Shown here piece after piece: positions 35,313 to 61,207 of a stretch of DNA of 64,000 nt. The stretch is from contig JBFLZW010000022.1 of assembly GCA_040755755.1 (NCBI GenBank), positions 66,902-130,901 on the forward strand, written 5' to 3'. The notes beneath the pieces are model-generated. The model saw only the letters and a list, made by a program, of their open reading frames with translations. It did not search any database and was not told the DNA's origin. Position 1 is the first letter of the stretch; every line of letters begins with the position of its first letter. The position numbers and the translations under genes are program-made. Source of the stretch: a bacterium (GTDB lineage: Bacteria > SZUA-182 > DTGQ01).

Positions 35313-38168
35313 TCAATGCCTGCTCTTAACCTGTTGCAGCAGCTCATTCGCCCTGGGATACCGGGGATTGATTTTGAGCACCTTGAGCAGTTCGCTTTCA
35401 CCTCTGGCCATCATTCCCTGCTGAAGGAAGATAATGGCCAGGTTGAAGTGCAGATCAGCACTCTCCGGTCTGATCTCGACCGCTTTTTGCCAGTATCGTT
35501 TGGCCTCTTCCGGCATCCCTTTTTGTATACAGGCTGAGCCGAGGTTCGAGAGTGCCTCGAAGTTTCCGGGCTCTGCTTCGAGCACCTTTTTCCACTCCGA
35601 AATGGCGGATTGGATATCCCCCTGCTGAAACCTGGCTGATCCAAGGTGAAGATGAGCGGATGCGGAATTAGGATCGATGCGCAGAATTTCCTTCCAGGCC
35701 GCGATCGCCTCATTCACCTTCCCCTGCTGAAAGCAGGCTGCACCCAGGTTATGGTAAGCCTCGAGGTTTTTCGGATTCAGGCTGATCGCCTTCTTCCAGT
35801 TGCTGAAAGCCTCGGCATTCTGCCCCTGCTGAAAGAACAGGTTGCCCAGTTTCGTATATGCCTGGTCACATCCAGGGTCGAGGCGGATTGCCGCTTCCCA
35901 TTCTTTTCGGGCTTTTGGCCAATAATCCTGCAGCGCATATGCCTGTCCAAGCAGCAGGCGGGTTCCGGCCCGCTTCGGAGAAGTCTGAATTACCTGCTCG
36001 AACAGGATTCTGGCCTTCTCCGGCTGGCCCTTCTGAAGGTAAATGCGGCCAAGTCCCTCCCTGGCTTCAATCGAACCAGGCTCCAGGAGGAGGGCCCGCT
36101 GAAAATGCTTTTCAGCCAGGCTGTAGTGTTTGTGCTGAAGACAGGCATTTGCCAGGTTGATCAGTATTCCGGCATTCTGCGGATCAAGATCTCCGGCCAG
36201 AGTAAGCTCCCTGAGTGCCTGTGCCTGCTTTCCCTGCTGGCCATAGAGGACGCCCAGATTGTTGTGGGCATCGGCGTACTCCGGCCAGAGGGAGATGGCT
36301 TTTCGAAAATCCCCTTCCGCCCCGGCCGGATCACCCTCCCTGATCCGGATTTTCCCCCGCAGGTTATACCCTTCGGCAGAGGTCTGGTCAAGCCGGAGAA
36401 GGGTCCGGACAGTGTCCAGGGCTTTTTGGATTTTTCCCTGATCAGCATAATCTACAGCCAGATTATAGTAAGCCTCGGCATGGTTGGGGTGGAGCTCGAT
36501 TTCCTGCCGGAACTCCCGGATAGCCTGATTCGGGTCATGTATTTCATGGTAGATGCTTCCCAGGTGGTTATGGATATCCAGGTGTGTCGGGTCAAGATCG
36601 AGGATTTTTCTTAAAGCATCTATGGCCGAAGAGTATTGGCGCAGCCTGCGGTAGAGGCAGGCCTGATAGAACAGGGCGGAAATATTCGCCGGATCGGACC
36701 CGACGATTGCAGTGAACTTCCCAAGGGCTTCCTGATACCTGCCCTGGGCAAGATCAGCCACTCCCTCGTCAATGCCTTTGAGCACTTCCACCTTATCCTT
36801 GGCATCCGGCAGGTTTGCCCACGCCCTCGGAGAGAGCGGGGCCTTCACCTGAAGATAGCCAAGGCTCTGAAGCTGCTCCCGTATCAGGCGGTTCCGCTGG
36901 GCAGGGGAAGAGGAAGAAGGGGAGGGGAGTCGCCCCAGACGACGGCTGCTTTCCAGGCTGGAGCGAAGCTCTGACGCCTTGGGATGCTGCTGCCGGTAGA
37001 GATTGACTTTCTCCCCCGGATCCTGGATCAGATAATACAGCTCAGGTTTTGGCGCTTCGATGTATTTCCATTGGGCTGTCCGCACGCCAAGCTCAGGGCT
37101 CCATCCATAGTGAAAAAGAGGAGAAAAGGTTTCACATCGAAGACATCGCTCATTATTCTGATCCTGAGATCTCCTGATGAGGGGCAGCATGCTCAGACCA
37201 TCGATCTTTTTCGGGATATAGGCGGAGAGTCCGGCCAGGTCAAGGATAGTCGGCAGGACATCAATGGTTCGAACCAGGGATTTTACCTGCTTCGGATCGC
37301 CGTCAGGGGCATTTTTCGGGAGCTTGAGAATAAGAGGAACCCGGATCGTGGAATCGTAGAGAAAATTCCCATGTGTGCTCTCCTGATGCTCTCCCAGCCC
37401 TTCCCCATGATCAGCCGTGAGCACGATGAGTGTCTGGTCAAAGAGCCCCTGTTTTTTCAACTCCTGAAACAGGGTGCCGAGACAGTGGTCAACTGAGGCG
37501 ATTTCCCCGTCATAGGGAGATTGGCTGTACCGGCCTTTGAACGGCTCCGGGGCTTCATAAGGTGCATGCGGATCGAAGTAGTGGAGCCAGAGGAAAAAGG
37601 GGAATCGCTTCCGGTTCTTGTGATCCCTGATCCGGGAAAGAGCAAGGCCGGTCACTTCGGCAGCCCGGCGCTCACTGAAATGGACAGCCATAGTCGTCTG
37701 CTGCTTTGGCAGGTGGTCATTGTAATCGTCAAATCCCTGGTCCAGGCCGAAGGTGGAATCAAGGACAAAGGAGCCGATAATCGCGCCGGTGGAAAACCCT
37801 CGCTCCTTCAGGATCTCCGCCAGGGTCAGCGTTTCCTTTTTCAGGGAGAATGAGCCGTTATCCAAAACCCCGTGCTGATGAGGATAGAGGCCGCTCAAGA
37901 GAGAAACATGTGAGGGAAGGGTAATCGGGACCGGGGTAAAGGCTTGCCAAAACAGCACGCCCTGTCTGGCCAGGGCATCGATGTTTGGAGTCTGAATGGC
38001 CCGATATCCATAGCAGCCAAGATGGTCTGCCCGAAGCGTATCAATGGTGATCAGAAGCACATTGCACGGCCGCTGCTTTTCTCCCTGAACCGGCCAGGCA
38101 GCAGGAAGGCAGGTGAGGAGCAGAAGGAGGAAAACCATGAAAGAAAGGAATGATTTTATCTTTAACAT
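35313..38168 (-). CDS. Sulfatase-superfamily enzyme fused to about 14 TPRs, Thr nucleophile
   Basis: The product is about 951 residues from the ATG at 38168, and a GTG four codons earlier is possible. The signal peptide or anchor (FLSFMVFLLLLLTCLPAAW) is followed by an alkaline-phosphatase-fold domain: LLITIDTLRADHLGCYGY, ITLPSHVSLLSGLYP, FLWLHYFDPHAPYE and LTADHGEGLGEH. The usual sulfatase C/S-x-P-S-R motif reads T-L-P-S-H, so formylglycine cannot form and Thr is probably the nucleophile, as in phosphoethanolamine and phosphoglycerol transferases. About 14 34-residue TPRs fill the second half. The substrate is unknown, and a periplasmic hydrolase or transferase acting in a complex is inferred. 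A gtcagtg repeat abuts the start codon. Confidence 0.85.
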   Translation of the reverse strand: MLKIKSFLSFMVFLLLLLTCLPAAWPVQGEKQRPCNVLLITIDTLRADHLGCYGYRAIQTPNIDALARQGVLFWQAFTPVPITLPSHVSLLSGLYPHQHGVLDNGSFSLKKETLTLAEILKERGFSTGAIIGSFVLDSTFGLDQGFDDYNDHLPKQQTTMAVHFSERRAAEVTGLALSRIRDHKNRKRFPFFLWLHYFDPHAPYEAPEPFKGRYSQSPYDGEIASVDHCLGTLFQELKKQGLFDQTLIVLTADHGEGLGEHQESTHGNFLYDSTIRVPLILKLPKNAPDGDPKQVKSLVRTIDVLPTILDLAGLSAYIPKKIDGLSMLPLIRRSQDQNNERCLRCETFSPLFHYGWSPELGVRTAQWKYIEAPKPELYYLIQDPGEKVNLYRQQHPKASELRSSLESSRRLGRLPSPSSSSPAQRNRLIREQLQSLGYLQVKAPLSPRAWANLPDAKDKVEVLKGIDEGVADLAQGRYQEALGKFTAIVGSDPANISALFYQACLYRRLRQYSSAIDALRKILDLDPTHLDIHNHLGSIYHEIHDPNQAIREFRQEIELHPNHAEAYYNLAVDYADQGKIQKALDTVRTLLRLDQTSAEGYNLRGKIRIREGDPAGAEGDFRKAISLWPEYADAHNNLGVLYGQQGKQAQALRELTLAGDLDPQNAGILINLANACLQHKHYSLAEKHFQRALLLEPGSIEAREGLGRIYLQKGQPEKARILFEQVIQTSPKRAGTRLLLGQAYALQDYWPKARKEWEAAIRLDPGCDQAYTKLGNLFFQQGQNAEAFSNWKKAISLNPKNLEAYHNLGAACFQQGKVNEAIAAWKEILRIDPNSASAHLHLGSARFQQGDIQSAISEWKKVLEAEPGNFEALSNLGSACIQKGMPEEAKRYWQKAVEIRPESADLHFNLAIIFLQQGMMARGESELLKVLKINPRYPRANELLQQVKSRH

Positions 38169-38226
38169 TCCACTGACCACTATTCACAGACCACTAACCA
38201 CTGTCTTTACTGACCACTGACCACTC
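38169..38226. repeat. Inverted array of cactgaccac words
   Basis: Five degenerate ctgaccact/cagaccac/ctaaccact words fill the whole gap between the regulator's stop and the sulfatase gene's start. On the minus strand they read agtggtcagtgg and reach to within one base of the ATG, so the repeat occupies the ribosome-site region. Confidence 0.65.
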
Positions 38227-39590: not shown

Positions 39591-40100
39591 CTACGATTCT
39601 TTTTGTTTTTTCACGAGGAATTGAAGGATAGTTTGATTGAGCTGGGATATTTCCTGTCTAACCTGCCCGATTTCTTGCCTGACCTGCCCGATTTCAGAGT
39701 CAATCTTCTGACTTAATCCATCTATCCTCTGGTTTACTTGCCCGATTTCTTGCCTGACCTGTCCGATTTGAGTATCAATCTTCTGGTTTACCTGCCCGAT
39801 TTCAGAGTCAATCTTATGGCTTACCTGCCCGATTTGAGAGTCAATCTTATGGCTTACCTGCCCGATTTGAGAGTCAATCTTATGGCTTATTTGCCCTATT
39901 TCAGAATCAATCTTTTGTCCAAGGGTATCGATCCGCTGGTTCAGGTACCGGAAATCCTCCTCTTGCTTTTGTTTTAATTCCGCGATGTCTGTCCTGATTT
40001 CGGCAGTTCTCTCCTCTACGGTCTCATAGATCACTTCCAGGGTAACTTTTCTGACTACCTTTTTGACCATCTCCTTTGATATTGGAATCTTGGGTATCAT
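39591..40100 (-). CDS. Hendecad coiled-coil repeat protein
   Basis: The 169-residue product has an N-terminal basic/helical region with KVTLEVIYETVEER. It is followed from residue 64 by tandem 11-residue units of the type IDSQIGQVSHK, some shortened to seven residues (IGQVNQR), ending LNQTILQFLVKKQ. Hendecad plus heptad mixing predicts a long right- to left-handed coiled coil, probably trimeric or dimeric. It is a close relative of the fragment at 1-242. There is no signal peptide. The function is unknown. Confidence 0.72.
   Translation of the reverse strand: MIPKIPISKEMVKKVVRKVTLEVIYETVEERTAEIRTDIAELKQKQEEDFRYLNQRIDTLGQKIDSEIGQISHKIDSQIGQVSHKIDSQIGQVSHKIDSEIGQVNQKIDTQIGQVRQEIGQVNQRIDGLSQKIDSEIGQVRQEIGQVRQEISQLNQTILQFLVKKQKES
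39636..39911 (-). repeat. Tandem 33-bp coding repeat in the coiled-coil gene
   Basis: 33-bp units (one hendecad each), together with shorter 21-bp units, repeat nearly unchanged. The three copies around 39800-39890 are almost identical, which suggests slippage-driven length change. Confidence 0.8.
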
Positions 40101-40119
40101 TTCTGGACCACCTCTCTCG

Positions 40120-40132
40120 ACCGGACACTTTT
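40120..40132. repeat. Solo copy of the MITE end sequence
   Basis: accggacactttt matches 13 bases of the 15-bp terminal repeat at 27459 and lies just upstream of the coiled-coil gene. A partner inverted copy was not seen nearby, so it may be a remnant end. Confidence 0.4.
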
Positions 40133-40224
40133 AAGAAAAAGTCTTAACTGCCACTAATATCAGTTTAGGATCTAGTGTGAAATTTATCATATATATGCTT
40201 TTTTGTCAAAAAGGAACGAAAAAA

Positions 40225-40254
40225 AGGGGCGGCCCCCTGGTCGGGGCCGCCCCT
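40225..40254 (-). terminator. Rho-independent terminator of the giant Cys-rich gene
   Basis: aggggcggcccc and ggggccgcccct form a perfect 12-bp GC-rich stem with a six-base loop. On the minus strand it is followed by a T-run (TTTTTCG). It lies 36 bp beyond the stop codon at 40290. Confidence 0.9.
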
Positions 40255-40289
40255 GAATAATTGCTGTAAGCTGAAGCCGGGCTTAACGC

Positions 40290-43200
40290 TTACTGGTTAT
40301 CCAGGCAGGAAGGCTGTCCCAGATACTTTTTAAACAGGCACAGAGCGTCAGCCGGAGTAACGCTGCCATTCCCATCGACATCGGCACAATCGCTGCACGG
40401 TCCTGCGGCAAGATAACACTGGAAGGCGATCAGAGCGTCTTTTGGCGTAATGCTGCCATCTCCGTTAAGATCGCCATCGCAGCTATAGATGCAGAAGCAG
40501 CCTGGAGTGGCGGAAAACTTTGCCAGATCGTCCGTCAATTCTTCCAGCCTCAGGGGATAACATCCACCTTCCATGCCACCCCTGACCTTGAACTTCAGGA
40601 TGACCACAGTACCGCTTGCTTCCTTCGGGATACCCTGGGTGGAGTATCCTCCTGCGATCAGTCTGCCGGAGCCAATGGAATTGACCGAAAAGCTCGGGAA
40701 AGAGGTTACCAGGTTCCCTGGTTCAAACCCCAGGTACTCCAGGACAGATGGCTTGTAGCTTACCTCAAAGCCAAGGGAAGAGACTGCACCGGGCGCTTTT
40801 TGAATCCTTACCGGTATCTTGACTTCTTCGTCCACCCTGCCTTGGGTCCCTTCGATGTCCAGTTTTCCGGAATCATCTTCCTCGCACACGATCGGTTGAA
40901 TGGTGATCGTAGCTGTGCAGGAGATGGTGTTACCGGCCTTATCACTGGCAGTAAAGATGACCGTGGTCTTGCCAGGCGGCAGGATTTGCGGAAGCGCGGA
41001 TTTTATCCCTTCCTCGTTGACACCGGAGGGGACATGGCAGGTAACCTCAACCTTGCCATCTACCGCATCCCAGGCTTTAGCCTCGGACAGGAAGGCAACT
41101 ATTTCGGGATCGTCAGCAGGCGTACCTGCACTGGTTATCTGGGCAATGACCCTGTCTGCCGGGCAGTCGATTTCAGGTGGAACAGTGTCCTTCAGGCAGA
41201 TACATCCTCCGGTTTTGGAAAATTGAACCAGATCATCGATCGGTTTTTCCAGGTCTAAAGGATAGCAGCCGTCTTCCAGATCACCGATAACCTTGAATTT
41301 CAGCCATACGAGCCTGCCGCTTGTTCCCTTGGGGATTGCTTTATCAGAAGCTCCTCCGACGATGAGTCTATCAGTGCCAATGGAATTGACCTGAAACAAG
41401 CGGAAAGAAGTTACCAGATCGCCTGGTTCATATCCAATGTACTGCAAAATATCCGGCCTGTAGACTACTTCAAAGCCAAGGGCAGAGACACTGGTGGGCG
41501 CCTTTTGAATCCGTACCGGGATTTTAACCTCACCTCCCGCTATCCCCTGGGCTCCTTCGATATCCAGCGCTCCGCTACTTTCCTCTGTACATCCAGTTAC
41601 TAGCGGATGGCACCACAAAACGCTTCCAGCGGCCTGGGCAGTGGAGATGGGGCAGCAGATCTGGGCGGGTTGAGTACTGCTTGCCGGACAGGGTCTGCAC
41701 CACAGGACATCCGAGCTTACTTCGGCTGTTGCCAGCGGGCAGCAGTAGTTGATAATGCTGCCATCGACATTTTGGGCAAACGGACAGGGGCGGCACCAGA
41801 GAATATCGGAGCTGACCTCTGCGGCTGGCAGGGGGCAGCACCACTGCCTGAGAGTCTCATCCACACCGGCAGCCAGAGGACAGGGTTTGCACCACAGATC
41901 CTGGCCGGTACTGGTGGCAATGGGACAGCAGTAAATATTCAGCTCCTTGTCAGCAGTTTTGGGATAAGGACAGGGCCTGCACCAGAGCTGGTTATCGACC
42001 TCTTTGGCTATCGGACAGCACCAGCGGGTGAGCAGGCCGTCTTTTTCCACCACATAGGGGCAGGGTCTGCACCACAGGGCCTGATCGGCCACATCAGCCT
42101 GGGCCAGCGGACAGCACCAGCGAATGACACTGTTATCCAGCTTGGCAGCTATGGGACAGGGTCTGCACCACAGGCGCACTCCTTCCACGGAAACATCGGG
42201 CACCGGACAGCACCACACCTGGATACTGTTATCAACATTCGTGGCCAGAGGACAGGGTCTGCACCACAGTGCCTGGTTAGTTACTGTGGCTGTAGCCACC
42301 GGGCAGCAGTAGGCATTGGGGCCTGCCGTTCCAGTATCAGCCACAGGACAGGGCCTGCACCAGAGCTGAATATCGGCGGTGGCAGCCACCGGACAGCAGT
42401 ACCTGACCTCGCCGGTTGGCAGCTTGTACGCATAGGGGCAGGGCTTGCACCACAGAACATCCGCGCTCACCTCGGCTGTGGCCAGGGGGCAGGGATAACA
42501 AATTTGAGCCGGAGGAATCACTTGAGCCTGAGCATCATACTTTTCAATAGTGATTGAGATAATCCGGCCACTTGCATCCATCTCGAAACAAACCTTGACC
42601 TGATCGCCGGCCTCGATATCTTCAGCCTGGGTCAAAGGTACCGAAATCTCACGGATATTTCCCGACTCATCAACTATCTTCAGATCAGAGCGGCCTGTTG
42701 AGACATGGTGCTGGATTTCCCTTACCTTGGCGATTATGCAATTGTCAGGCAGCGGTGTTACCGGCACCGGACAGGGTTTGCAGATCAGAGCAGGCGATGT
42801 ACCGGCAACTATCGGGCAGGGATAGCAGCGGAGGACATTTGCGCTCACCTCGGCTGTAGCCAGCGGGCAGCAGCGTTTTATGGTTCCATCGGCCATCTTG
42901 ATCTCATAGGGACAGGGTCTGCACCACAGAACATCCGAGCTTACTTCGGCTGTTGCCAGCGGGCAGCAGTAGTTGATAATGCCGCCATCGACATTTTGAA
43001 CAAACGGGCAGGGGCGGCACCAGAGAACATCGGAGTTGACCTCTGCGGTTGGCAGCGGGCAGCACCACTGCCTGAGAGCCTCATCCACGCCAGCGGCCAG
43101 AGGACAGGGTTTGCACCACAGATCCTGGCCGGTACTGGTGGCAATGGGACAGCAGTAAATGTTCAGCTCCTTATCCGTGGTTTTGGGATTGGGACAGGGC

Positions 43201-46200
43201 CTGCACCAGAGCTGGTTATCGACCTCTTTGGCCAGTGGACAGCACCAGCGGGTGAGCTGGCCATCCTTTTCCACCACATAGGGGCAGGGTCTGCACCACA
43301 GGGCCTGATTGGCCACATCAGCCTGGGCCACCGGGCAGCACCAGCGTATGACAGAGTTATCGAGCTGGACAGCTATGGGGCAGGGTCTGCACCACAGGCG
43401 CACTCCTTCCACGGTCGCATCCGACACCGGGCAGCACCATGCCTGGATATTGTCATCAACATTCGTGGCCAGAGGACAGGGCCTGCACCACAGTGCCTGA
43501 CTGTCCGCCGTAGTTGCAGCCACCGGGCAGCAGTAGGCATTGGGGCCTGCCGTTCCGGTATCAGCCACAGGACAGGGCCTGCACCAGAGCTGAATATCGG
43601 CGGTGGCAGCCACCGGACAGCAGTACCTGACCTCGCCGGTTGGCAGCTTGTACGCATAGGGGCAGGGCTTGCAGATCAGACTGGGCGATGTACCGGCAAC
43701 TATCGGGCAGGGATAGCAGCGGAGGACATTTGCGCTCACCTCGGCTGTAGCCAGCGGGCAGCAGCGTTTTATGGTTCCATCGGCCATCTTGATCTCATAG
43801 GGACAGGGTCTGCACCACAGAACATCCGAGCTTACTTCGGCTGTTGCCAGCGGGCAGCAGTAGTTGATAATGCCGCCATCGACATTTTGAACAAACGGGC
43901 AGGGGCGGCACCAGAGAACATCGGAGTTGACCTCTGCGGTTGGCAGCGGGCAGCACCACTGCCTGAGAGCCTCATCCACGCCAGCGGCCAGAGGACAGGG
44001 TTTGCACCACAGATCCTGGCCGGTACTGGTGGCAATGGGACAGCAGTAAATGTTCAGCTCCTTATCCGTGGTTTTGGGATTGGGACAGGGCCTGCACCAG
44101 AGCTGGTTATCGACCTCTTTGGCCAGTGGACAGCACCAGCGGGTGAGCTGGCCATCCTTTTCCACCACATAGGGGCAGGGTCTGCACCACAGGGCCTGAT
44201 TGGCCACATCAGCCTGGGCCACCGGGCAGCACCAGCGTATGACAGAGTTATCGAGCTGGACAGCTATGGGGCAGGGTCTGCACCACAGGCGCACTCCTTC
44301 CACGGTCGCATCCGACACCGGGCAGCACCATGCCTGGATATTGTCATCAACATTCGTGGCCAGAGGACAGGGCCTGCACCACAGTGCCTGACTGTCCGCC
44401 GTAGTTGCAGCCACCGGGCAGCAGTAGGCATTGGGGCCTGCCGTTCCGGTATCAGCCACAGGACAGGGCCTGCACCAGAGCTGAATATCGGCGGTGGCAG
44501 CCACCGGACAGCAGTACCTGACCTCGCCGGTTGGCAGCTTGTACGCATAGGGGCAGGGCCTGCACCACAGAACATCCGAGCTTACATCGGCTGTAGCCAG
44601 CGGGCAGCAGATTATTTGCGGGGCAGTTCCGGTCGTCGGACAGGGATAGCACCAGGGGATAGAATCGCAGTTTTGGCCCCAGATGGTTAGATCATCCCAG
44701 AATACTTTCAGGTAGTCGCCCGATCCTGGCGGGAAATTCCCCGCTGCGGTCAATATCACCTGGATGGTTCTGACCTCGCACCACTTGATGGGAATGTCCT
44801 TTTCAAGACTTCTCTCCAGGGTATTCCATTTGTCCTGAGTGGAGGATTCTATGAGAATCGTGGTGTTCGGTTCCAAAGACTGGGAACCGTTCTTGAACAA
44901 AACATAGGAGCGCTGGCCCATGGTCTGTCCGGAGGCGTTACGGGCAATAACTTCCACACTCACTCTGCGATAGGCGCTGCGGGAAGTCATAACCTGTTGA
45001 ATGCGATAGGAAAGCTTAAGGTTGAGGTCTTCGCATCCGCAGAGATAAAATTCACGGGAAGCGCTGACCTTGCCTGGATATTTTTCCGGGTCGATTGGCG
45101 CTATTATGGTGGGATCCACGACTATCTGAGTGGCATCCGCCACGAGCAGAGGATTCGCAGCTATCAGAGTATCACTTGAAGCCTTGATAGTAGCGGTACT
45201 GCTGCTGGTCTTTTCCAGATAACCTTCCAGAAAAGCCCGGATTGACCGTTTGGGCGAGACATATGCTTCCGTTGAATAATCAATTTCCTGGGTCACCGGA
45301 AACGGCTTGGTTACTGGTCCCTTGGTGAACTTCCAGGTGTCCAGTTCCATGTTATCGAAGTGCCTGCATGGACAGCAGAATTGGGCTGGCACTGTATCGG
45401 CAGCAACCGGGCAGGGCACCGGGCACACTATGCACTTTTGCTCCGGAATGGCAGAAGCATAGGGGCAGCACCTGTTTATGGGATCGGTGCAGGGAAGCGG
45501 GCAGCATTTTTGCGCTGGAGCAGTGCTGGAAATCGGGCAAACAATAGGCGGGATAACCACCTCTTTAATCACGCCGAGCAATTGCCCGGTTTTCTTATTG
45601 AAGAATTTCACTTCATACGTGCCGGGCTCCAGGCATCCGATTTTTGTAGTGATATCATACGTGCAGATACATCTGCATCCACTGCCTTCTAACTTTTCCT
45701 CTTCATAGATATTGATGGTATTTCCCGTCATACTCATGGTGACGGCGATTTCCTCAATGCAGCAGTTGTACGAGGCGTTCTCATGGAACAGGTAAAGGAG
45801 ATTGTCATGATAACTGCAGGTAAATTTCTCCTCTTCCGCAGATCGTCCCGTAGTGGAGGAAATCTCTTTTTTGCAGCCGCTGTTTTCATAATTCACGATT
45901 GAAGGGCCGGTTATGGATGTCCCAACAGGAGTTGCAGTTACAGCGGTTTTCGATATATCGATATTCGAAGCTATAGTCGAAGAGACAGAAGCAGTAAGCG
46001 CGCCAGCGGCAGTGACAGCCTCCCGGTAGCGGACCTGGACATCGGGTTGCGGAGCAAATCCGGTCGGCAGGATAGCGGCATAGACATTTTTATGACCGCT
46101 TCTGGAATCGACCCAGATAATCCTGTCCCCGGAAATAGCCGGGAAAGTCTGATCTCCGCTCTGGTCGGTAATTTGAAATTCCTTATGGGTATTCAGATCG

Positions 46201-47123
46201 TAACCATAGATATCCCAGTTTCCGTTTCGGTCATCCTGCCAGACAACGATATTGCCGCAGATATCCGGAACCTGCTGCTTCCCTTCGTGGACGCAGATGG
46301 CGATTTCCTGCTTTGTGGCCAGATCGTACAGGTAAATATCGTCGTTGCCGTTTCTTTTGTCCTGCCAGACAACCTTTGTTCCACTGACAGCCGGGTAAGC
46401 CTGATTATCAGCCGCCGTACAGATGGGGAACTCCCGGCCGGTCGTCAGGTCAAGGCCATAGATGTCATAATTGCCCGACCGCTCGTCCATCCAGATGATG
46501 TAATTGTCGGAAATGACCGGATTCCCCTGCCAGGAAGGATCGAGGCAAATAGCATATTCCTGGCTGGTTCGCAGGTCATAGAGAAAGATGTCCGGGCTGC
46601 CGGTCCGCAGGTCCGCATACACGACGCGCTCTTTCTGAATATCTCCGTACCCCTGCCATTCCGGATTCGTGCAGATGGGAAACTCCTCATCTGTCTCCAG
46701 GTCATATCCGTACATGTCGTAGTATTTGAAGATGTATGCATATTTATTCTCGACAGACGGATCATCCATGATGCTCCGGTAATCCATCCAGATAACCTTG
46801 TTTCCCCAGATGGCCGGATACTTTTCCGCAGCCGCGCTTTGACCGAGTTGCCTGCTGCTGCCGGTCTCAAGGTCACTCAGGAATACCTTGTAGTAATAAT
46901 CGTCTCCCTGCTGCATCCAGACGACTTTCGTATCGTAGATTTCCGGAACTTCCTGATCCACGGGCTGAGGATACAGCGCCTGCCCGCTCAGAGACAGATT
47001 CGTCTCCGAATTTGTCCTGCCTTCCTGAACTCCCGTAAACCCTATGCCAATGGCCATGATGAAGAACACGAGGCAACAGAAGCTCGACAACTTGGCCCAC
47101 CAGATGTTTTTTAACTTAGCCAT
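40290..47123 (-). CDS. Giant secreted propeller / CxPCP-CCP repeat / cohesin / dockerin protein
   Basis: The product is about 2,277 residues from the ATG at 47123; a GTG at 47132 is an alternative. In order it has a signal or anchor segment (residues 10-33) and a TolB/PD40-like propeller (about 50-345, blades ending like VVWQDDRNGNWDIYGYDL). A Cys-rich patch (about 530-595) and a jelly-roll-like domain (about 600-820) follow. About 1,000 residues (825-1845) then have C-x-P-C-P alternating with C-C-P every 30 or so residues, typically WCRPCP-x(11)-WCCPLA. A non-repetitive insert of about 90 residues lies at 1455-1545. Two cohesin-like domains (about 1850-1980 and 2090-2215) flank an HYR-like domain. 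A dockerin (two DxNGDGxxTxxDA loops) ends the protein. There are about 32 CxPCP motifs. None is CxxCH, so haem attachment is not expected; disulfide or metal binding is inferred. Family unknown for the repeats. Confidence 0.85.
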   Translation of the reverse strand: MAKLKNIWWAKLSSFCCLVFFIMAIGIGFTGVQEGRTNSETNLSLSGQALYPQPVDQEVPEIYDTKVVWMQQGDDYYYKVFLSDLETGSSRQLGQSAAAEKYPAIWGNKVIWMDYRSIMDDPSVENKYAYIFKYYDMYGYDLETDEEFPICTNPEWQGYGDIQKERVVYADLRTGSPDIFLYDLRTSQEYAICLDPSWQGNPVISDNYIIWMDERSGNYDIYGLDLTTGREFPICTAADNQAYPAVSGTKVVWQDKRNGNDDIYLYDLATKQEIAICVHEGKQQVPDICGNIVVWQDDRNGNWDIYGYDLNTHKEFQITDQSGDQTFPAISGDRIIWVDSRSGHKNVYAAILPTGFAPQPDVQVRYREAVTAAGALTASVSSTIASNIDISKTAVTATPVGTSITGPSIVNYENSGCKKEISSTTGRSAEEEKFTCSYHDNLLYLFHENASYNCCIEEIAVTMSMTGNTINIYEEEKLEGSGCRCICTYDITTKIGCLEPGTYEVKFFNKKTGQLLGVIKEVVIPPIVCPISSTAPAQKCCPLPCTDPINRCCPYASAIPEQKCIVCPVPCPVAADTVPAQFCCPCRHFDNMELDTWKFTKGPVTKPFPVTQEIDYSTEAYVSPKRSIRAFLEGYLEKTSSSTATIKASSDTLIAANPLLVADATQIVVDPTIIAPIDPEKYPGKVSASREFYLCGCEDLNLKLSYRIQQVMTSRSAYRRVSVEVIARNASGQTMGQRSYVLFKNGSQSLEPNTTILIESSTQDKWNTLERSLEKDIPIKWCEVRTIQVILTAAGNFPPGSGDYLKVFWDDLTIWGQNCDSIPWCYPCPTTGTAPQIICCPLATADVSSDVLWCRPCPYAYKLPTGEVRYCCPVAATADIQLWCRPCPVADTGTAGPNAYCCPVAATTADSQALWCRPCPLATNVDDNIQAWCCPVSDATVEGVRLWCRPCPIAVQLDNSVIRWCCPVAQADVANQALWCRPCPYVVEKDGQLTRWCCPLAKEVDNQLWCRPCPNPKTTDKELNIYCCPIATSTGQDLWCKPCPLAAGVDEALRQWCCPLPTAEVNSDVLWCRPCPFVQNVDGGIINYCCPLATAEVSSDVLWCRPCPYEIKMADGTIKRCCPLATAEVSANVLRCYPCPIVAGTSPSLICKPCPYAYKLPTGEVRYCCPVAATADIQLWCRPCPVADTGTAGPNAYCCPVAATTADSQALWCRPCPLATNVDDNIQAWCCPVSDATVEGVRLWCRPCPIAVQLDNSVIRWCCPVAQADVANQALWCRPCPYVVEKDGQLTRWCCPLAKEVDNQLWCRPCPNPKTTDKELNIYCCPIATSTGQDLWCKPCPLAAGVDEALRQWCCPLPTAEVNSDVLWCRPCPFVQNVDGGIINYCCPLATAEVSSDVLWCRPCPYEIKMADGTIKRCCPLATAEVSANVLRCYPCPIVAGTSPALICKPCPVPVTPLPDNCIIAKVREIQHHVSTGRSDLKIVDESGNIREISVPLTQAEDIEAGDQVKVCFEMDASGRIISITIEKYDAQAQVIPPAQICYPCPLATAEVSADVLWCKPCPYAYKLPTGEVRYCCPVAATADIQLWCRPCPVADTGTAGPNAYCCPVATATVTNQALWCRPCPLATNVDNSIQVWCCPVPDVSVEGVRLWCRPCPIAAKLDNSVIRWCCPLAQADVADQALWCRPCPYVVEKDGLLTRWCCPIAKEVDNQLWCRPCPYPKTADKELNIYCCPIATSTGQDLWCKPCPLAAGVDETLRQWCCPLPAAEVSSDILWCRPCPFAQNVDGSIINYCCPLATAEVSSDVLWCRPCPASSTQPAQICCPISTAQAAGSVLWCHPLVTGCTEESSGALDIEGAQGIAGGEVKIPVRIQKAPTSVSALGFEVVYRPDILQYIGYEPGDLVTSFRLFQVNSIGTDRLIVGGASDKAIPKGTSGRLVWLKFKVIGDLEDGCYPLDLEKPIDDLVQFSKTGGCICLKDTVPPEIDCPADRVIAQITSAGTPADDPEIVAFLSEAKAWDAVDGKVEVTCHVPSGVNEEGIKSALPQILPPGKTTVIFTASDKAGNTISCTATITIQPIVCEEDDSGKLDIEGTQGRVDEEVKIPVRIQKAPGAVSSLGFEVSYKPSVLEYLGFEPGNLVTSFPSFSVNSIGSGRLIAGGYSTQGIPKEASGTVVILKFKVRGGMEGGCYPLRLEELTDDLAKFSATPGCFCIYSCDGDLNGDGSITPKDALIAFQCYLAAGPCSDCADVDGNGSVTPADALCLFKKYLGQPSCLDNQ
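42793..43668 (-). repeat. Tandem duplication, unit 891 bp, downstream copy
   Basis: This stretch reads the same as 43684-44559 at an offset of 891 bp (297 codons) wherever I compared lines. Both copies lie in frame inside the giant Cys-rich gene. The borders are marked by a few substitutions at 42790-42792 and at 43669. Confidence 0.85.
43684..44559 (-). repeat. Tandem duplication, unit 891 bp, upstream copy
   Basis: This is the second member of the apparently identical in-frame pair. Each unit carries ten CxPCP and nine CCP motifs. A third, clearly diverged copy follows at about 41600-42480. Confidence 0.85.
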
Positions 47124-47331
47124 GATCCTCACTACTCCTTTCTCTGACTCTCCTCTTTTTTTTTACTCTCAACTACCTGTGCTTCCAAGACAAATTATAA
47201 AGAATTACCTGTTTTTTTCCTCTTCGCCGTGTTCACCTCCTTATGAAAAGGGCGCTCATATGTGCTGGTATGCCGGGGCATTTCAGGAGCCGGGAAACCG
47301 GACAGGATATCCCTCTCCCCTATTTTGAGGC

Positions 47332-47366
47332 GGATCGAGGGGGAATTTCACGTCCCGCCTCGATCC
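47332..47366. other. Hairpin between the small membrane gene and the giant gene
   Basis: ggatcgaggggg pairs with cccgcctcgatcc with one mismatch or bulge. It lies in the 315-bp leader region of the giant gene and could be an attenuator, a processing site or a weak terminator of the small upstream gene. The rest of 47124-47438 shows nothing else. Confidence 0.4.
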
Positions 47367-47438
47367 TTTCAGGAAAGAGGGGATTCTGGAATCCCCCCGC
47401 TCCCCTCCTCCTTGTGCGCCTCTTGAGACCAGAATGTC

Positions 47439-47666
47439 TCAGTGCTGTGCATTGCCGTGCAGATATGAGCGAAAAAGGTTGACTATCGGTTCAACTGAAC
47501 ATATAAGATTTTTGCCAGGGATATTTCGAGCGCTAATGGCCCGGTGCGGCAGTAAGACAAATTTTTTCTGTTGAGCCAGGGTGAAAGAAATGGTGGTGGT
47601 AATGACCAGGAGGATAATATGGCCTGCAGAAATGGTGACTATCAGATTGCTCAACAAGCTTTCCAT
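47439..47666 (-). CDS. Small single-pass membrane protein candidate
   Basis: A 75-residue frame starts at an ATG with AAGGAGGG seven bases upstream, which is among the best ribosome sites in the window. It encodes a hydrophobic N-terminal helix (LIVTISAGHIILLVITTTISFTL) followed by a basic tail (QQKKFVLLPHRAISARN). No family was recognised. It is upstream of the giant Cys-rich gene on the same strand. It could be real or chance; the ribosome site and helix argue for real. Confidence 0.4.
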   Translation of the reverse strand: MESLLSNLIVTISAGHIILLVITTTISFTLAQQKKFVLLPHRAISARNIPGKNLICSVEPIVNLFRSYLHGNAQH

Positions 47667-50098: not shown

Positions 50099-50168
50099 AT
50101 TACAAACTCCGGAGAATAACTGATAACTGATGACTGTCTTTGCAGGGCTTCGGGAGCGGAAGAAATTT

Positions 50169-51161
50169 ATGATGTTTTTGAAATTGATTTTAAAGCACAA
50201 AGGATTTCCGGCAGGTTCCTGTATTTTGTCACTTTTCTTTCTTTTCCTCTTCACCTGTCCAGTCCGGGCCAGGGAGCCCTCCGGGGCGGACGCATTGTAT
50301 CGGTTTGACCGGCAGGTTCAAATGAGTTTTTCCGGAGCACGGTCCGGCAAGCCCACGTCCCTGGCTATCGATTCGACCGGCAGGCTCTTTGTTGTCTGCT
50401 CGCTGACAAACGATGTCCGGGTCTTTGATTCCGCCGGACGGTTTCTGTTTGCTTTCGGCAGAGAGTCTTCCAGCCAGGACAAGTCTGGTAACAAAGGGGT
50501 GCTCAAAGAGCCTTCGGGGATAGCGATTGATAAACAGGACCTTATCTACATCAGTGATCTGGCTGCGGACAGGATTTTGATTTACAGCTCGGATGGCAGG
50601 TTTCTGGACCAGTTTCCTTTGCATCAGCCGGAAAAGGGGCGTGAAACCTGTGCTCCTTTTATCGCCTATAATCCTTATGACAATCGGCTTTATGCTGCCG
50701 ATGCCTGCAATCACCTGGTTGGGGTCTACACGCTGAAGGGAGAATTCAAAGCCAGTTTTGGCACAGCAGGAACAGGGGAGGGGGATTTGAGCGGCCCGGC
50801 TCATATCTCGTTCGATACCAGGGGAAATATCTATGTGGTTGATGCAGGTAATTTCAGGGTTCAATCTTATACTCCTGATTTCAAGTTCCGCTTTGCGTTC
50901 GGCAGGAGCGGGACGAAAGAGGGAGAGTTTGTCCGGCCTTATGGCCTGGCCATCGATGCCAAAGACCGGATTTATGTTTCCGATTTTATTGCGAATTCAG
51001 TCCAGGTATTCAACAATAAAGGGCAATACCTGGTCTCGGTGAGTCAGCCTGATAATCCCAGACTGTTCAGCCAGCCTCTCGGTCTGGCATGGGTGAATAA
51101 TAAAATCTATGTGGTTAATGCGGAGACAAAAGTTGTTTCAGTATTCGACATTGCAAAGTAG
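50169..51161 (+). CDS. Secreted NHL-repeat beta-propeller (cytochrome partner 1)
   Basis: The product is 330 residues from the ATG at 50169 (GGAAG six bases upstream); an earlier ATG at 50130 lacks a well-placed site. The signal peptide ends near VRARE. Six NHL-type blades follow: SLAIDSTGRLFVVCSLTNDV, GIAIDKQDLIYISDL, IAYNPYDNRLYAAD, HISFDTRGNIYVVDAGNFRV, GLAIDAKDRIYVSDF and GLAWVNNKIYVVNA. The protein is extracytoplasmic. NHL propellers are found next to secreted multihaem cytochromes in Geobacter-type bacteria, where their role is unclear. Its end overlaps the cytochrome gene start by 53 bp. Confidence 0.85.
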   Translation: MMFLKLILKHKGFPAGSCILSLFFLFLFTCPVRAREPSGADALYRFDRQVQMSFSGARSGKPTSLAIDSTGRLFVVCSLTNDVRVFDSAGRFLFAFGRESSSQDKSGNKGVLKEPSGIAIDKQDLIYISDLAADRILIYSSDGRFLDQFPLHQPEKGRETCAPFIAYNPYDNRLYAADACNHLVGVYTLKGEFKASFGTAGTGEGDLSGPAHISFDTRGNIYVVDAGNFRVQSYTPDFKFRFAFGRSGTKEGEFVRPYGLAIDAKDRIYVSDFIANSVQVFNNKGQYLVSVSQPDNPRLFSQPLGLAWVNNKIYVVNAETKVVSVFDIAK

Positions 51162-53154
51162 GTATCGGAGAATCACTCTCCAGTGGACTGTAGGCATTGT
51201 TGGTGCTCTGGTGACGATATTTTTCAGCTTTCAAACCGTCTGCGCTCTCAACGGACCCCATGCCTGGTGCGTACCCGATGACCCCTGCGGGGCCTGTCAT
51301 CTTCCTCACCATGCTGCCGATGACCTTCTCTGGGCGCGTACTCCGGGAGGAGAATTTACCGGAACCAAGCGGCTGTGCGGTACCTGTCACGGAACTCATC
51401 TCTTTGGGGCCAGGGATTACATTTTTATTGAGGAAGGAAATGATCATCCCATGGGAGCCAATGCTTCCCTTCAAGGGCCGGCAGTGACCCGGAAAGACTG
51501 GGCCGAATTCCCTCTGCGGATAAAGGAGGGGGGGGATGGGTTCTATTGCGGGAGCTGTCATAATCCTCACACCGATCCATTCGAGGGCGGCGATTACCTG
51601 CGGGAGTCCTCCCCGGGCACGATTCAGAATACCTCACAGAAACATTATGAATTCTGCATTCAATGCCATGCCCCCCTCATCCAGGGCAATGCTCGTGGAC
51701 ACGGAACCAGAGACGGCTGCTTTGACTGCCACACTCCGCATTATTCTCCCAATCGCGGAAAAAAAATTATCAGGACCGAAAGCACCGTTCTCTTCAAGGC
51801 AGTGCCCAACGTACCCGGTTTTTCCGATCCGGCGGCTGAATCGTATGCAGCCAGTTGCTATGGCTGCCATCGGGCACAGGGCGGGGGCGATGGATCATTC
51901 ATGGCCCCGTTCAATGGAGACGATTGTCAGATCAGATACGAACATCACCCTATGGGCACAGGCGCGGACGCTACACTCGATGGGCATCAGAAGACCGCGG
52001 CAGGCCCCCTCTCGCCGGAAGGAGAACTTTACTGCAAATCCTGCCATGATCCTCACAAGGGTACCAATGGAAAATACCTGAATCCCCAGGTCATCACCAG
52101 CTACGATCCGGCTCATCCCGGAGCCTTCTGTGTCGCCTGCCATTCTGATAAAGCGGTCAGTGATCTTGAGCCCACTTCAGGACGGGGGCATAATCAGGTC
52201 GGGCGTTCAACCGGCCAGCAGTCCCAGAATGAAAATGAGTGCCTTTTCTGCCACTCCATTCATCAATCAGCGGATGAACCAGCGGCTGTTTGCCAGACTG
52301 ATAGCGATATCGCAACCGAAGTGAATTCCTCAGTTTCGACCGATGTAATCATGCGGATTGTGCCGGTAAACCTGCAATGGGCTGATAAATTCCAGGACCA
52401 GGATACCCGTGATTATGAGGATGCCTGCTATGGCTGCCATGCGCGGTCTGAAATCGTTGGGTCAAAAGATGCTGATAACGATAAAAATTCCCTCCTCTTT
52501 GACAATGTGGACGAGCGGTACTTTTCACACCGGTTTAATGTCGTGCCGAGCAAAGTCATCAATACCCTGGATCCCTTTGAGGATGGGAAACCGGTTGTTT
52601 CCGATGGCAGAGAGAAGAAGTGCCAAAATGACTACGGGATCGAGAAGGATAAAATCTGGTGTGGAAGCTGTCACAATGTCCATAGGCAGGATTCCCCGCC
52701 TGTCCACTACTCGCAGGAATTTACCATCCGGCGCACAGCGTACCTTCGCAGGTCGAATGTGACCGAGGACTTTTCCGGCTCTGCACTGTGCATTGCCTGT
52801 CACACCAGTAAGCCGATATCTGCCGAGACCGAATCCTCCCATCCGGTCAACAGGCCGCTGAAACAGAAAGCGGTTCAATTCGGTGCTCATTTTCAGGGTT
52901 ATGTCACCGCCGGTTTCAGTGGAGGGATTGGAGGACAGACCTCAAACGACACGCTGGATGGAGATATCATCTGCCAGTCCTGCCACAGTGTCCATACAGC
53001 CGTGACCAGGCATGACGGGATCAGCCGGGCTGGAAAAGTGAATGCCGGAAAACTCCTGATCATTGATAATGCCATCGGCGGCAGGTTCATGAATCAGCCC
53101 GAGTACCAGTATGGCAGTGGATTATGCTTTAATTGCCATTATGGGATGAATTAA
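51109..53154 (+). CDS. Secreted 14-haem c-type cytochrome
   Basis: The 681-residue product has a long basic N-region and a signal helix (GIVGALVTIFFSFQTVCA). I count 14 CxxCH haem-binding motifs, from CGACH near residue 60 to CFNCH nine residues before the end, with many additional histidines as distal ligands. The paired motif style (CGSCHNPH, CKSCHDPH, CQSCHSVH) is typical of large deltaproteobacterial cytochromes. The start overlaps the NHL gene in another frame, implying coupled translation; an ATG three codons later is also possible. It is probably periplasmic or extracellular in electron transfer, with partner unknown. Confidence 0.92.
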   Translation: MWLMRRQKLFQYSTLQSRYRRITLQWTVGIVGALVTIFFSFQTVCALNGPHAWCVPDDPCGACHLPHHAADDLLWARTPGGEFTGTKRLCGTCHGTHLFGARDYIFIEEGNDHPMGANASLQGPAVTRKDWAEFPLRIKEGGDGFYCGSCHNPHTDPFEGGDYLRESSPGTIQNTSQKHYEFCIQCHAPLIQGNARGHGTRDGCFDCHTPHYSPNRGKKIIRTESTVLFKAVPNVPGFSDPAAESYAASCYGCHRAQGGGDGSFMAPFNGDDCQIRYEHHPMGTGADATLDGHQKTAAGPLSPEGELYCKSCHDPHKGTNGKYLNPQVITSYDPAHPGAFCVACHSDKAVSDLEPTSGRGHNQVGRSTGQQSQNENECLFCHSIHQSADEPAAVCQTDSDIATEVNSSVSTDVIMRIVPVNLQWADKFQDQDTRDYEDACYGCHARSEIVGSKDADNDKNSLLFDNVDERYFSHRFNVVPSKVINTLDPFEDGKPVVSDGREKKCQNDYGIEKDKIWCGSCHNVHRQDSPPVHYSQEFTIRRTAYLRRSNVTEDFSGSALCIACHTSKPISAETESSHPVNRPLKQKAVQFGAHFQGYVTAGFSGGIGGQTSNDTLDGDIICQSCHSVHTAVTRHDGISRAGKVNAGKLLIIDNAIGGRFMNQPEYQYGSGLCFNCHYGMN

Positions 53155-53827
53155 CGTAACTACCCAGGTTCAGAGGGGCAAAGGCAGCTCAACTTCCCGA
53201 ATAATTGGAAATTACCGATTGACTTGGGTTTATACCTTTGTTATATTATATCATATTTGTAAATATGCAACCCTATGTATTTTACGCTGAGTATACTTCT
53301 CTGAGACAAGAGATCGCCTCCCCGGCAGGATTATACAGTAGACGAATGCATTTTCTGATGGGCTGAAATGGCATTTCCTGTCATGGTAAATCGGAGAAAC
53401 AGCCGATATATGACAATACACTCGAAATCTTGTGAATACTCCTCTGATGTCGAAGGCGTTGACCACACCCCGGCAGTGAATAATAAGTTCGCATTTTCTT
53501 TCATACTGTGTAATCGGATTCATAGTTGATATTTTCTATTCCTGTTTGCCGGAATAACCTTGAGAATTTCAGGGAAGGGCTCCTGGTTTTTGTTCAGGCC
53601 AGTTACCTTCACCAGCAAAAAATCTCGGGATACCAGCCAGGTATGGGGGAGTCGTGGTATTTATTTTGCATCCTTTAATGATGCACTATGTCGGAGCGGT
53701 TTTTGAGGAGCGGGGTTTTTCGGAGTTTTTTCCCGGGCTGACTGAATAACCTGGCGCGAGTTGAGTAGCGGTGCATGCGGAGAAAATAGATGACGGCACA
53801 ATTCAAACTTGGAGGGGGATAAGATTT
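53155..53827. other. Intergenic regulatory region before the second NHL gene
   Basis: This 673-bp gap is AT-rich and has no supported gene; a 90-codon minus-strand frame at 53251-53523 has no family or ribosome-site support. It contains the sigma-54-like element at 53655-53671 and an adjoining inverted repeat (tgcatc ... gatgca, 53667-53685). Confidence 0.5.
53655..53671 (+). promoter_or_regulatory. Possible second sigma-54 promoter
   Basis: tggtatttattttgcat has GG and GC ten bases apart and a good -12 half (TTGCAT), but the -24 half is only TGG. The predicted start near 53681 would leave a leader of about 147 bases. A short palindrome overlaps the start site. Confidence 0.45.
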
Positions 53828-54913
53828 ATGAAGCGGTTTTCATCCAGTTTATGGATTTTTTTCCTGATCAATCTGCTGGTCCAGTTTTTTCTTGTTTCAC
53901 CGCCGGCCTTTTTCAAAGCTGAAGCCAAAGAGACCACGGCAGGTAACAAGGCAGGCAGACAGAAGGCCGGGGACCGGAAAGATGCTCAGGCTGAAGACGA
54001 TCAGGAGCAGAAGGTTGAAAACAGGTCGGTTAAACTTGTCGGCACCCTGGGTGAATCCCGGACTGTCGAGATGAAGGGAGGCCAGGATGGTATCGCGGTA
54101 CATCTGGCCCAGAATTCGAAGGGTGATCTTTATGTAGTAAAAAATATACCCTCCGAGATAGCGGTTTACAGCAGGGATGGCAAGTTTTTATTCAAATTCG
54201 GCAAGGAAGGCAGTGGTCCGGGTCAGTTCCTCCAGCCGTTCAGCGTCGCCATTGATAGTCAGGATAAAGTATACATCTGTGATGTCAAGCGGGAGAAGAT
54301 ACTGGTTTTTTCCTTTGCCGGTGAATTTGTGGAAGAATTTTCCTCCAAGTCGGCTCTGACCGCAGATGACAAATATCAGAATGCCGCTCCGGGTTGCATT
54401 GCCATTGATAAGAAAAGCAATCGGCTCTATGTCAGTGATGCCTCGAATGGCCATATCTGGATTTATGATCTGCATGGCAAGTTTTTGCAGTATTTTAAAG
54501 GCAAGGAACAAGGCATGTTTTGCACTCCCGGAGTTGTCTGCTTCGATCAGCAGAACCGGATATTTGTGCCGGAAGGTATGTGCGACCGGGTTCGGGTTTT
54601 TAAGCAGGACGGAACAGAGCTTTTTCAGATCGGCGGGCAAAGCGGGGAACTGGCCGGTCAGTTTTCCCGTTTGACGGGAGTGGCTGTTGACAGTAAAGGC
54701 CGGGCTTATGTAAGCGACCTCCTTCTGAAATGTGTTCAGGTATTCAGCCCTGAAGGGAAATTTGTCGGTGCAATCAAGTGGATGGACAGCAAAGAGGGTA
54801 AGACCTATTTCACCATGCCAACGGGAATCTTTATCGGGAATGACGGCTCGATTTTGGTTACTGATCAGGAGGTCAATAAGATTTATATAGTCAAGGATGG
54901 AAATCAAAAATAA
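53828..54913 (+). CDS. Secreted NHL-repeat beta-propeller (cytochrome partner 2)
   Basis: The product is 361 residues from the ATG at 53828, which has GGAGGGG nine bases upstream. A signal segment (WIFFLINLLVQFFLV) leads to a charged Lys/Glu/Asp linker (residues 35-70), then NHL blades: AVYSRDGKFLFKFGKEG, SVAIDSQDKVYICDV, IAIDKKSNRLYVSDASNGH, VCFDQQNRIFVPEGM, GVAVDSKGRAYVSDL and GIFIGNDGSILVTD. It is related to the propeller at 50169-51161 and likewise precedes a multihaem cytochrome, so the pair looks duplicated as a module. Confidence 0.85.
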   Translation: MKRFSSSLWIFFLINLLVQFFLVSPPAFFKAEAKETTAGNKAGRQKAGDRKDAQAEDDQEQKVENRSVKLVGTLGESRTVEMKGGQDGIAVHLAQNSKGDLYVVKNIPSEIAVYSRDGKFLFKFGKEGSGPGQFLQPFSVAIDSQDKVYICDVKREKILVFSFAGEFVEEFSSKSALTADDKYQNAAPGCIAIDKKSNRLYVSDASNGHIWIYDLHGKFLQYFKGKEQGMFCTPGVVCFDQQNRIFVPEGMCDRVRVFKQDGTELFQIGGQSGELAGQFSRLTGVAVDSKGRAYVSDLLLKCVQVFSPEGKFVGAIKWMDSKEGKTYFTMPTGIFIGNDGSILVTDQEVNKIYIVKDGNQK

Positions 54914-55118
54914 TCATGTCTATCAGTCAATAAACAGCTTATTGAAAAAGGGAAGGAGTGGACAATGATGACGTAGCCGGTGATTGAATGGAGAGATTCG
55001 ATTTTGAGAGTTTGGGAAGGTTGTTATTATCCGGAATTGAGAGGGTTTAAAATTTAAGATGCTGAACCGTATTAAAATGGTTGGGAGAGAGTGCTTATGG
55101 AAGAGAGGGGATCGAACA

Positions 55119-61000: not shown

Positions 61001-61207
61001 TCCTCTCATTCAGGTTGGTGGTCATCGAACAGCTCGAACCCCTGGTCATCCTATAATTCAAGCTGGCTGCCATCGTATAGTTCGAGCGGGTGGCCATCGT
61101 ATGGCCATTCTTCCTCATATGGCCTGTTCAATAATTCATTCGGTAATTCATATAACTGGTCTGGCAACAACTGGTCTGGGACAAATCTGTGGTCAAGCTG
61201 GCCTTAA
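58001..61207 (+). CDS. Large secreted multidomain surface protein with Trp/Ser/Asn-rich tail
   Basis: The 1,068-residue product has a signal peptide (cleavage near VARAQ). A NIDO-like beta domain (about 32-235) has ISSNGYLTFGN and GDIIAPLWADLDP. A Gly/Ser/Pro/Thr linker (about 245-325, with repeats like STEPGSGTTPGSG) is followed by two Ig-like Big domains (about 330-540, each with a VDGRNVTSAA or VNGSDVTAKA motif). A two-component-regulator-type propeller (about 545-850: GLPGDWITCLAGDKQGNLWL, GVWVATQNHGVF, GNIWLATEFG, GNLWFGTDSGVSRL) leads to an SbsA-like Ig domain (about 855-960, TFSEPMD). The last 90 or so residues are a low-complexity tail of SSGWPSYSS-like units. The role is unknown; the domains suggest adhesion or matrix assembly. 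It follows the cytochrome island on the same strand but after a terminator. Confidence 0.8.
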   Translation: MKVRLSKNTVCFIISTILCTFLLKGPVARAQVAGPGPYVWIDVSSKSGRENLTLGDDDFRTVDLESIGFHFSFLGEPLTQLKISSNGYLTFGNNDAAKWSNEPLADSADPNKAYTGNPGDIIAPLWADLDPATGGAVYYLVDRVSKPARLIVEWHDIPMRHYTGEIASDTVTFEVILYEESNEIVFQYKDVITGSDRSTRGACATIGLKYHNQTVRQYSYNTRNALSNGMAVSFNQAARFVPQVYQGTTGSTPGGSTEPGSGTTPGSGTAPGSSTIPSGSTEPGSGSIAGSSAPPGSSPPPAASTIPVADTTPASGQNCEPIIEAINPPPNSTNISVNPKITLNIRALCGGLDRNSIRLFVDGRNVTSAATIADTSQGLTLSYRPNTPLACSTIIPVRVEASDQSGHSATRSYFLYSEDSCKPYLTSSNPPDQSCVPANATFTYGIGDLGSGVDIGSVHLTVNGSDVTAKASITATDEQGCLISYTSAAPFEKNQRVSVRITASDYAVPPNSMEAVFEYMTCYQGWTYFWLDRPVSDLALDKKGILWAATLGAGLFKYSPKADGDPLKPVYWTDYHPVTGLPGDWITCLAGDKQGNLWLCAQPDNDTGGGVVKFDPDKGTVVKFFPKGQNGLPDDPIHDLAIDPNDGVWVATQNHGVFRLYNQQWKLMFDTSRGLTDNWVKAIAPDDAGNIWLATEFGDIFKFNSANQLIYSSNLDSSFSVFNAYGININSLFFDPVEDTLWVATGDGAYHYRADRAVRWSKVTGLASKGVNAIFPVTRSDYPGEKYWFAADGGIFATTDWKAWKSYTAQMNPYSSPDDQIRCIQQDASGNLWFGTDSGVSRLDITPPVVKSITPNPDATEVSLSQDITITFSEPMDFASLLENITITPDDPNFTVKPSPDLTSITFQAPKSKLAPKTTYQISIDQGVMDLSGNQLSSARSSSFVTQQQASTTTNTSQTTSYSYGIWPLYTSNWLALLNPDWWSSYSSSGWSSYDQNSWPSSHSGWWSSNSSNPWSSYNSSWLPSYSSSGWPSYGHSSSYGLFNNSFGNSYNWSGNNWSGTNLWSSWP

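Follow-up and report, generated by a model that had tools for sequence, protein, structure and literature searches.

A 2280-residue protein with two cohesins and a C-terminal dockerin, a candidate branching link in a non-cellulosomal bacterial surface assembly

The window analyzed here is a 64,000-nucleotide stretch of a bacterial genome (5.26 Mb in 88 contigs, 97.6% complete; hereafter G000). A single large open reading frame on its minus strand encodes a protein of 2280 amino acids. The listed start codon is GTG, with AGAAAGGAGTA immediately 5' of it, and an ATG three codons inside the listed start is a possible alternative. From the N-terminus to the C-terminus, the protein comprises a hydrophobic, signal-like segment (identified by eye), a beta-propeller, a cysteine-containing module, a long array of cysteine-rich repeats, and the succession cohesin 1, HYR, cohesin 2, dockerin (Coh1-HYR-Coh2-Doc):

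40290..47132, minus strand: whole open reading frame, 2280 aa, GTG start listed
46053..46940, minus strand: N-terminal beta-propeller, TIGR04275 (beta_prop_Msarc) repeats in 7 stretches, NCBIfam E-value 1.5e-77; outer borders approximate
45528..45968, minus strand: Cys-containing module, common to two more proteins of the genome (G000:C78:688-1116 and G000:C30:144716-145147)
41583..44654, minus strand: Cys-rich repeat stalk of ~1000 aa, alternating WCRPCP (17 aa) and WCCP (13-15 aa) units
41214..41576, minus strand: cohesin 1, type A, link clade (Pfam and lineage HMM; pLDDT mostly >90)
40899..41192, minus strand: HYR-like domain (Pfam HYR, 20.4 bits against a cut-off of 21.7; low-confidence model)
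40509..40871, minus strand: cohesin 2, type A, link clade (Pfam, lineage HMM and fold match)
40299..40484, minus strand: C-terminal type I dockerin with two calcium loops and six cysteines, ending ...KYLGQPSCLDNQ-stop

Among the other genes of the window, 35313-38180 (minus strand) encodes a protein in which a sulfatase-family domain is joined to a long TPR array. The adjoining region on the opposite strand (50130-57386, plus) encodes two proteins with NHL propellers and two multihaem proteins, the latter with 14 CXXCH motifs each, and looks like an extracellular electron-transfer cluster.

The cohesin-dockerin interaction is among the strongest natural protein pairings and is best known from cellulose-degrading machines. 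A sequence-only reading of this DNA proposed that the polypeptide combines two cohesin-like domains with a terminal dockerin, and profile searches bear out the domains, their coordinates and their order. Pfam detects two cohesin stretches (PF00963, E-value 3.7e-19, 69.8 bits against a cut-off of 24.1) and one Dockerin_1 (PF00404, E-value 3.2e-5, 24.5 bits against a cut-off of 22.9), so that both scores stand above noise. Lineage-specific HMMs, from the training set of which the window protein was left out, place Coh1 at residues 1853-1973 (3e-43), Coh2 at 2088-2208 (6e-46) and Doc at 2217-2278 (2e-33). The cohesin motifs that had been pointed out are present, namely GALDIEG/GKLDIEG, LGFEV and a DGCYPL/GGCYPL end, and the HYR-like domain said to lie between the cohesins is found there just below the Pfam cut-off. 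The two calcium loops of the dockerin had both been described as DxNGDG; both loops are indeed present, the first one being DLNGDGSITPKDA, but the second, DVDGNGSVTPADA, reads DxDGNG. Only ~8 residues separate cohesin 2 from the dockerin.

Structure prediction agrees with the profiles. The AlphaFold model of Coh2-Doc (mean pLDDT 93.7, pTM 0.75) contains a nine-stranded jelly-roll that matches several solved type I cohesins with Z-scores of 16-19 and rmsd mostly of 1.4-2.2 A, among them 5nrm (Z 19.3). The dockerin part of the model has two helices (residues 145-155 and 175-185) beside the two calcium loops. Nearly all of the fold-comparison alignments span residues 1-133, that is, the cohesin part, and the dockerin part was assessed by sequence profile: the cassette profile matches the solved dockerins 2y3n_B, 1ohz_B and 2mte_A, and also solved cohesins. 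Thus, both cohesins and the type I dockerin are real; a chance motif is ruled out by Pfam, by the HMMs trained without this protein and by the fold. The recurrence of both families in an independent scan of the whole genome, and the retention of the domain order in a genome of the same genus, likewise speak against chance. A prediction of the complex within the protein, suggested as a check by the sequence-only reading, was informative only in part: in the Coh2-Doc model as well as in that of the entire Coh1-HYR-Coh2-Doc region (pTM 0.48) the domains fold, but there is no fixed arrangement of the dockerin relative to the cohesins.

Searches of Pfam, NCBIfam and PDB sequences gave no match to the cysteine-rich repeats, and Tandem Repeats Finder run over 40000-47500 reported nothing, although the repeats are plain at the amino acid level; 57 CxP turns and 171 cysteines were counted in the 2280-aa protein. 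A block of 297 aa is present twice (42777-43667 and 43668-44558) with 99.6% DNA identity, and this near-identical 891-bp duplication may mask an assembly error in the number of repeats, the C-terminal domains being untouched. The repeats are also found in a genome of the same genus (G001, record JAILZY01, MAG HOT.CON.50) and in a genome from another family of the same order (G004), where the homologue, encoded by a contig-edge gene, is 55% identical but has a different C-terminus, namely, a MopE-like stretch followed by a Gly/aromatic tail (...GGISYPFGGI...SVFNLLYKY) in place of Coh-Doc.

The G001 ortholog retains the Coh-HYR-Coh-Doc order, with two cohesins and one dockerin. Judging by the identities and dN/dS values, the latter only rough because synonymous sites are near or beyond saturation, the propeller (87%, dN/dS 0.05) and the dockerin (85%, 0.04) are the most constrained parts; the values are 73% and 0.16 for HYR, 71% and 0.19 for Coh2, 62% and 0.18 for Coh1, and 60% and 0.17 for the Cys repeats. 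A scan of the sequence collection with the single cassette sequence identified JAILZY01 and two distant clostridial loci that match the dockerin only.

A search of the full genome for other dockerin proteins, which had likewise been suggested, yielded 29 dockerin matches along with 25 cohesin matches. After the proteins were rebuilt from all loci and counted with the lineage HMMs, the G000 census comprises 15 proteins with both domains ('links'), 13 with a dockerin only ('caps') and 7 with cohesins only ('anchors'); the links include L036:4409-6592 despite its divergent dockerin, and one dockerin-only frame, L046, is a short contig-end fragment resembling the last part of a Coh-Doc protein. 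The corresponding numbers in G001 are 13, 5 and 5. The accompanying domains in G000 are PQQ and NHL propellers, right-handed beta-helices, VWA, CotH kinase-like, C25 peptidase, HYR and other Ig-like domains and MopE metal-binding motifs, and the set also holds a protein with two CXXCH motifs. Many of these proteins have signal-like N-termini (by eye) and there is no cellulase among them, as is typical of non-cellulosomal surface systems. An SLH domain was not detected anywhere in the genome, with four controls recovered; anchors of other kinds may be in use.

Among the members of this set, L043:6674-8968 belongs to the prismane/CO-dehydrogenase family, bears a Tat-like signal and ends in a dockerin, and is apparently an exported metalloenzyme; a prismane gene without the dockerin tag lies inside the window (25193-26845). 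Two C25 (gingipain-family) peptidases end in Coh-Doc or HYR-Doc (L020:5202-8279 and L042:354-4019); members of this family known from elsewhere typically rely on a type IX secretion tail. At L036:4409-7238 and L092:3542-6239, a 161-aa single-cohesin protein is encoded beside one of 720 aa whose cohesin is divergent and whose dockerin is degenerate, and the pair is kept in two genera.

Little variation is seen among the 45 well-scoring dockerins of G000 and G001, which form one class. Loop position 10 is proline in 39 of 44 in both repeats, position 17 is phenylalanine in 41/44 and 40/44 in the two repeats, respectively, and position 18 is mostly Arg, Lys or Gln; there are usually six cysteines, and YLGQPSCLD-stop is a common ending. 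The two repeats are alike, a property that in clostridial dockerins is tied to dual, two-orientation binding (PMC5429695). The cohesins, by contrast, split into two clades in the phylogenetic tree (SH-aLRT 98.6, UFBoot 92), and the clades differ in their association with dockerins: a dockerin is present on the same chain in none of the 9 anchor-clade proteins compared with 27 of the 32 link-clade proteins (p 6e-6). Because orthologs are not independent, the comparison was also made in G000 alone (0/4 against 14/17, p 0.006), and both p-values come from a test devised after the pattern had been noticed. In the unrelated genome G047, 8 of the 9 cohesin frames have a dockerin in the same frame. 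The anchor clade includes a lipobox protein with two cohesins (lipobox by eye), which is kept in G001, and proteins with uncharged tails rich in Tyr, Trp and Phe as well as in Gly, Ser and Asn.

Such aromatic-rich, uncharged C-terminal tails occur on surface proteins across the class (58001-61207, plus strand, in the window, and L029, L079, L019, L069, L038, L078, L085, L091 and L094), and possibly represent an unrecognised surface-attachment tail. The tails are found on chains that contain cohesins only and are absent from those that end in a dockerin. Together with the tail of the G004 homologue, this distribution suggests that the aromatic tail and the Coh-Doc cassette might be alternative attachment modules, as far as one contig-edge gene and about six proteins can indicate.

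Taken together, these observations are best compatible, with moderate confidence, with the window protein being a branching link subunit of a cohesin-dockerin surface assembly that is not a cellulosome. The protein would be secreted, and its C-terminal dockerin would plug into a cohesin of an anchor protein (the two-cohesin lipoprotein or an aromatic-tailed one) or of another link protein, and its own two cohesins would receive the dockerins of further surface proteins, its own copies included. The Cys-rich repeats could then be a stiff spacer and the N-terminal propeller the domain displayed outside the cell. Since a single dockerin class faces cohesins of two clades, the most economical arrangement would have three roles: anchors would provide sockets fixed to the cell, links would combine a plug with one or two sockets, and caps would have a plug alone. 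A chain that, like the window protein, has two sockets for its one plug would give rise to a branched structure rather than a strictly head-to-tail one.

The main rival of this scheme is the possibility that the adjacent cohesin is a rigid support that holds or presents the dockerin, as the X module does in X-dockerin dyads, with only the anchor-clade cohesins engaged in binding. The geometry is suggestive, given that no more than 7-12 residues separate the envelopes of cohesin and dockerin in 26 of the 27 cassettes and that a link-clade cohesin usually comes together with a dockerin, and the putative docking sheet shows no clear extra conservation (25/40 strand positions are alike between the clades, against 15/33 for the rest; p 0.16). 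However, some link-clade cohesins are on chains that lack a dockerin (L031:7627-8544, L034/L076 and L038/L078), Coh1 of the window protein is an extra, distant copy, and the anchor and link clades have consensus residues in common on strands 3 and 6; this alternative appears less likely than the link scheme. Because there is a single abundant dockerin class, the link-clade cohesins, if they bind anything, would have to bind it. Cohesin strand 3 carries a nearly invariant glycine (G36) at the place where a key aspartate sits in the C. thermocellum complex; hence, recognition must differ in detail from the C. thermocellum case.

The sequence-only reading had raised self-polymerisation of this chain, which would be possible and, with a single dockerin class, parsimonious. 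In its pure form, with the dockerin binding mainly the cohesins of its own copies to yield a head-to-tail fiber, it draws on the presence of both partners on one chain and on the multi-cohesin scaffoldins of Limousia, for which AlphaFold3 predicts binding to their own dockerins (PMC12997984). Still, similar sockets are available on 14 more link proteins and on seven proteins with cohesins only, and two sockets per plug imply branching, which makes a pure fiber quite improbable. Given that ~35 potential partners exist, with 15 link proteins among them, the window protein included, a mixed assembly would be at least as likely as pure self-assembly.

The sequence-only reading had also set the protein apart from cellulosome scaffoldins on the ground that no carbohydrase is encoded nearby, and the wider search upholds both points: a glycoside hydrolase domain is found neither in the scanned neighboring proteins of the window nor in the 36 scanned proteins of the genome that carry a cohesin or a dockerin, and GH9 is absent from the entire genome, with controls recovered (a GH48 search of the genome gave no match, and its positive control did not score either). 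The cellulosome reading is accordingly rejected for lack of GH partners. A cellulosome-like complex for the breakdown of proteins or polysaccharides is very improbable, even though two C25 peptidases and one polysaccharide deacetylase of G000 carry dockerins and Ca. Stygibacter combines dockerin peptidases with a cohesin scaffoldin (PMC8542988), because, besides the missing GH domains, the partners are mostly propellers, beta-helices, VWA, CotH and Ig-like proteins.

Elements of this organization are known from other systems. Clostridial scaffoldins (CipA of C. thermocellum and its relatives) similarly combine cohesins of the type I fold with a C-terminal dockerin on one chain, but there the dockerin and the cohesins of a chain differ in type, and the CBM, SLH and GH modules of those systems are missing here. 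Among non-cellulosomal cohesins, the closest in fold to Coh2 is 2xdh from Archaeoglobus fulgidus (Z 18.6, rmsd 1.4 A over 121 residues), at only 23% identity; A. fulgidus has a much smaller set of cohesin/dockerin proteins. A close parallel is provided by ANME archaea and their sulfate-reducing partners, which encode many cohesin/dockerin proteins without cellulases and for which non-cellulosomal surface roles have been proposed (PMC9012536, PMC10553843); as in the window protein, one dockerin and several cohesins (up to five in ANME) can share a chain (PMC9012536), and an adhesin of Hot-Seep1 has 'adjacent cohesin/dockerin domains' (PMC10553843). Here, however, the bearer is a bacterium of a small class, a standard, mostly C-terminal Coh-Doc cassette is present on 15 different proteins, the dockerins are Cys-rich, the cohesin anchors are aromatic-tailed proteins and lipoproteins, and SLH was not found. 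The Limousia mucinolysome scaffoldins cSca1 and cSca2 also join several cohesins to a dockerin of the class that they are predicted to bind, but they serve mucin-degrading GHs together with a sortase-anchored scaffoldin, in contrast to the GH-free set with lipoprotein or aromatic-tail anchors described here (PMC12997984). In Clostridium perfringens and Akkermansia, GH31 glycosidases with a cohesin and a dockerin on one chain assemble pairwise without a scaffoldin (PMC12997984), whereas in the present case the fusions are to propellers, peptidases and repeats. Thus, the combination of cohesin and dockerin on one chain is already known; what is new, with no description found in the literature compared, is the scale, the uniform linker-poor cassette, the six-cysteine dockerin and the aromatic-tail alternative.

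A broader picture, which is put forward only tentatively, is that of an outer layer woven from one plug-socket pair, in which ~15 proteins with the linker-poor Coh-Doc cassette would be combined with lipid or aromatic-tail cohesin anchors, the tail being exchangeable with the cassette, and with dockerin-plugged redox proteins (the Tat-signal prismane/CO-dehydrogenase-family protein and the two-haem protein). If the link-subunit interpretation is correct, cohesin-dockerin pairs would make up a general cell-surface construction kit of ~35 non-cellulolytic proteins, 15 of which have plug and sockets on one chain. The anchor-link-cap logic of such a kit would be testable with a handful of purified domains, and would offer a way to interpret the cohesin/dockerin repertoires of ANME consortia, so far unexplained.
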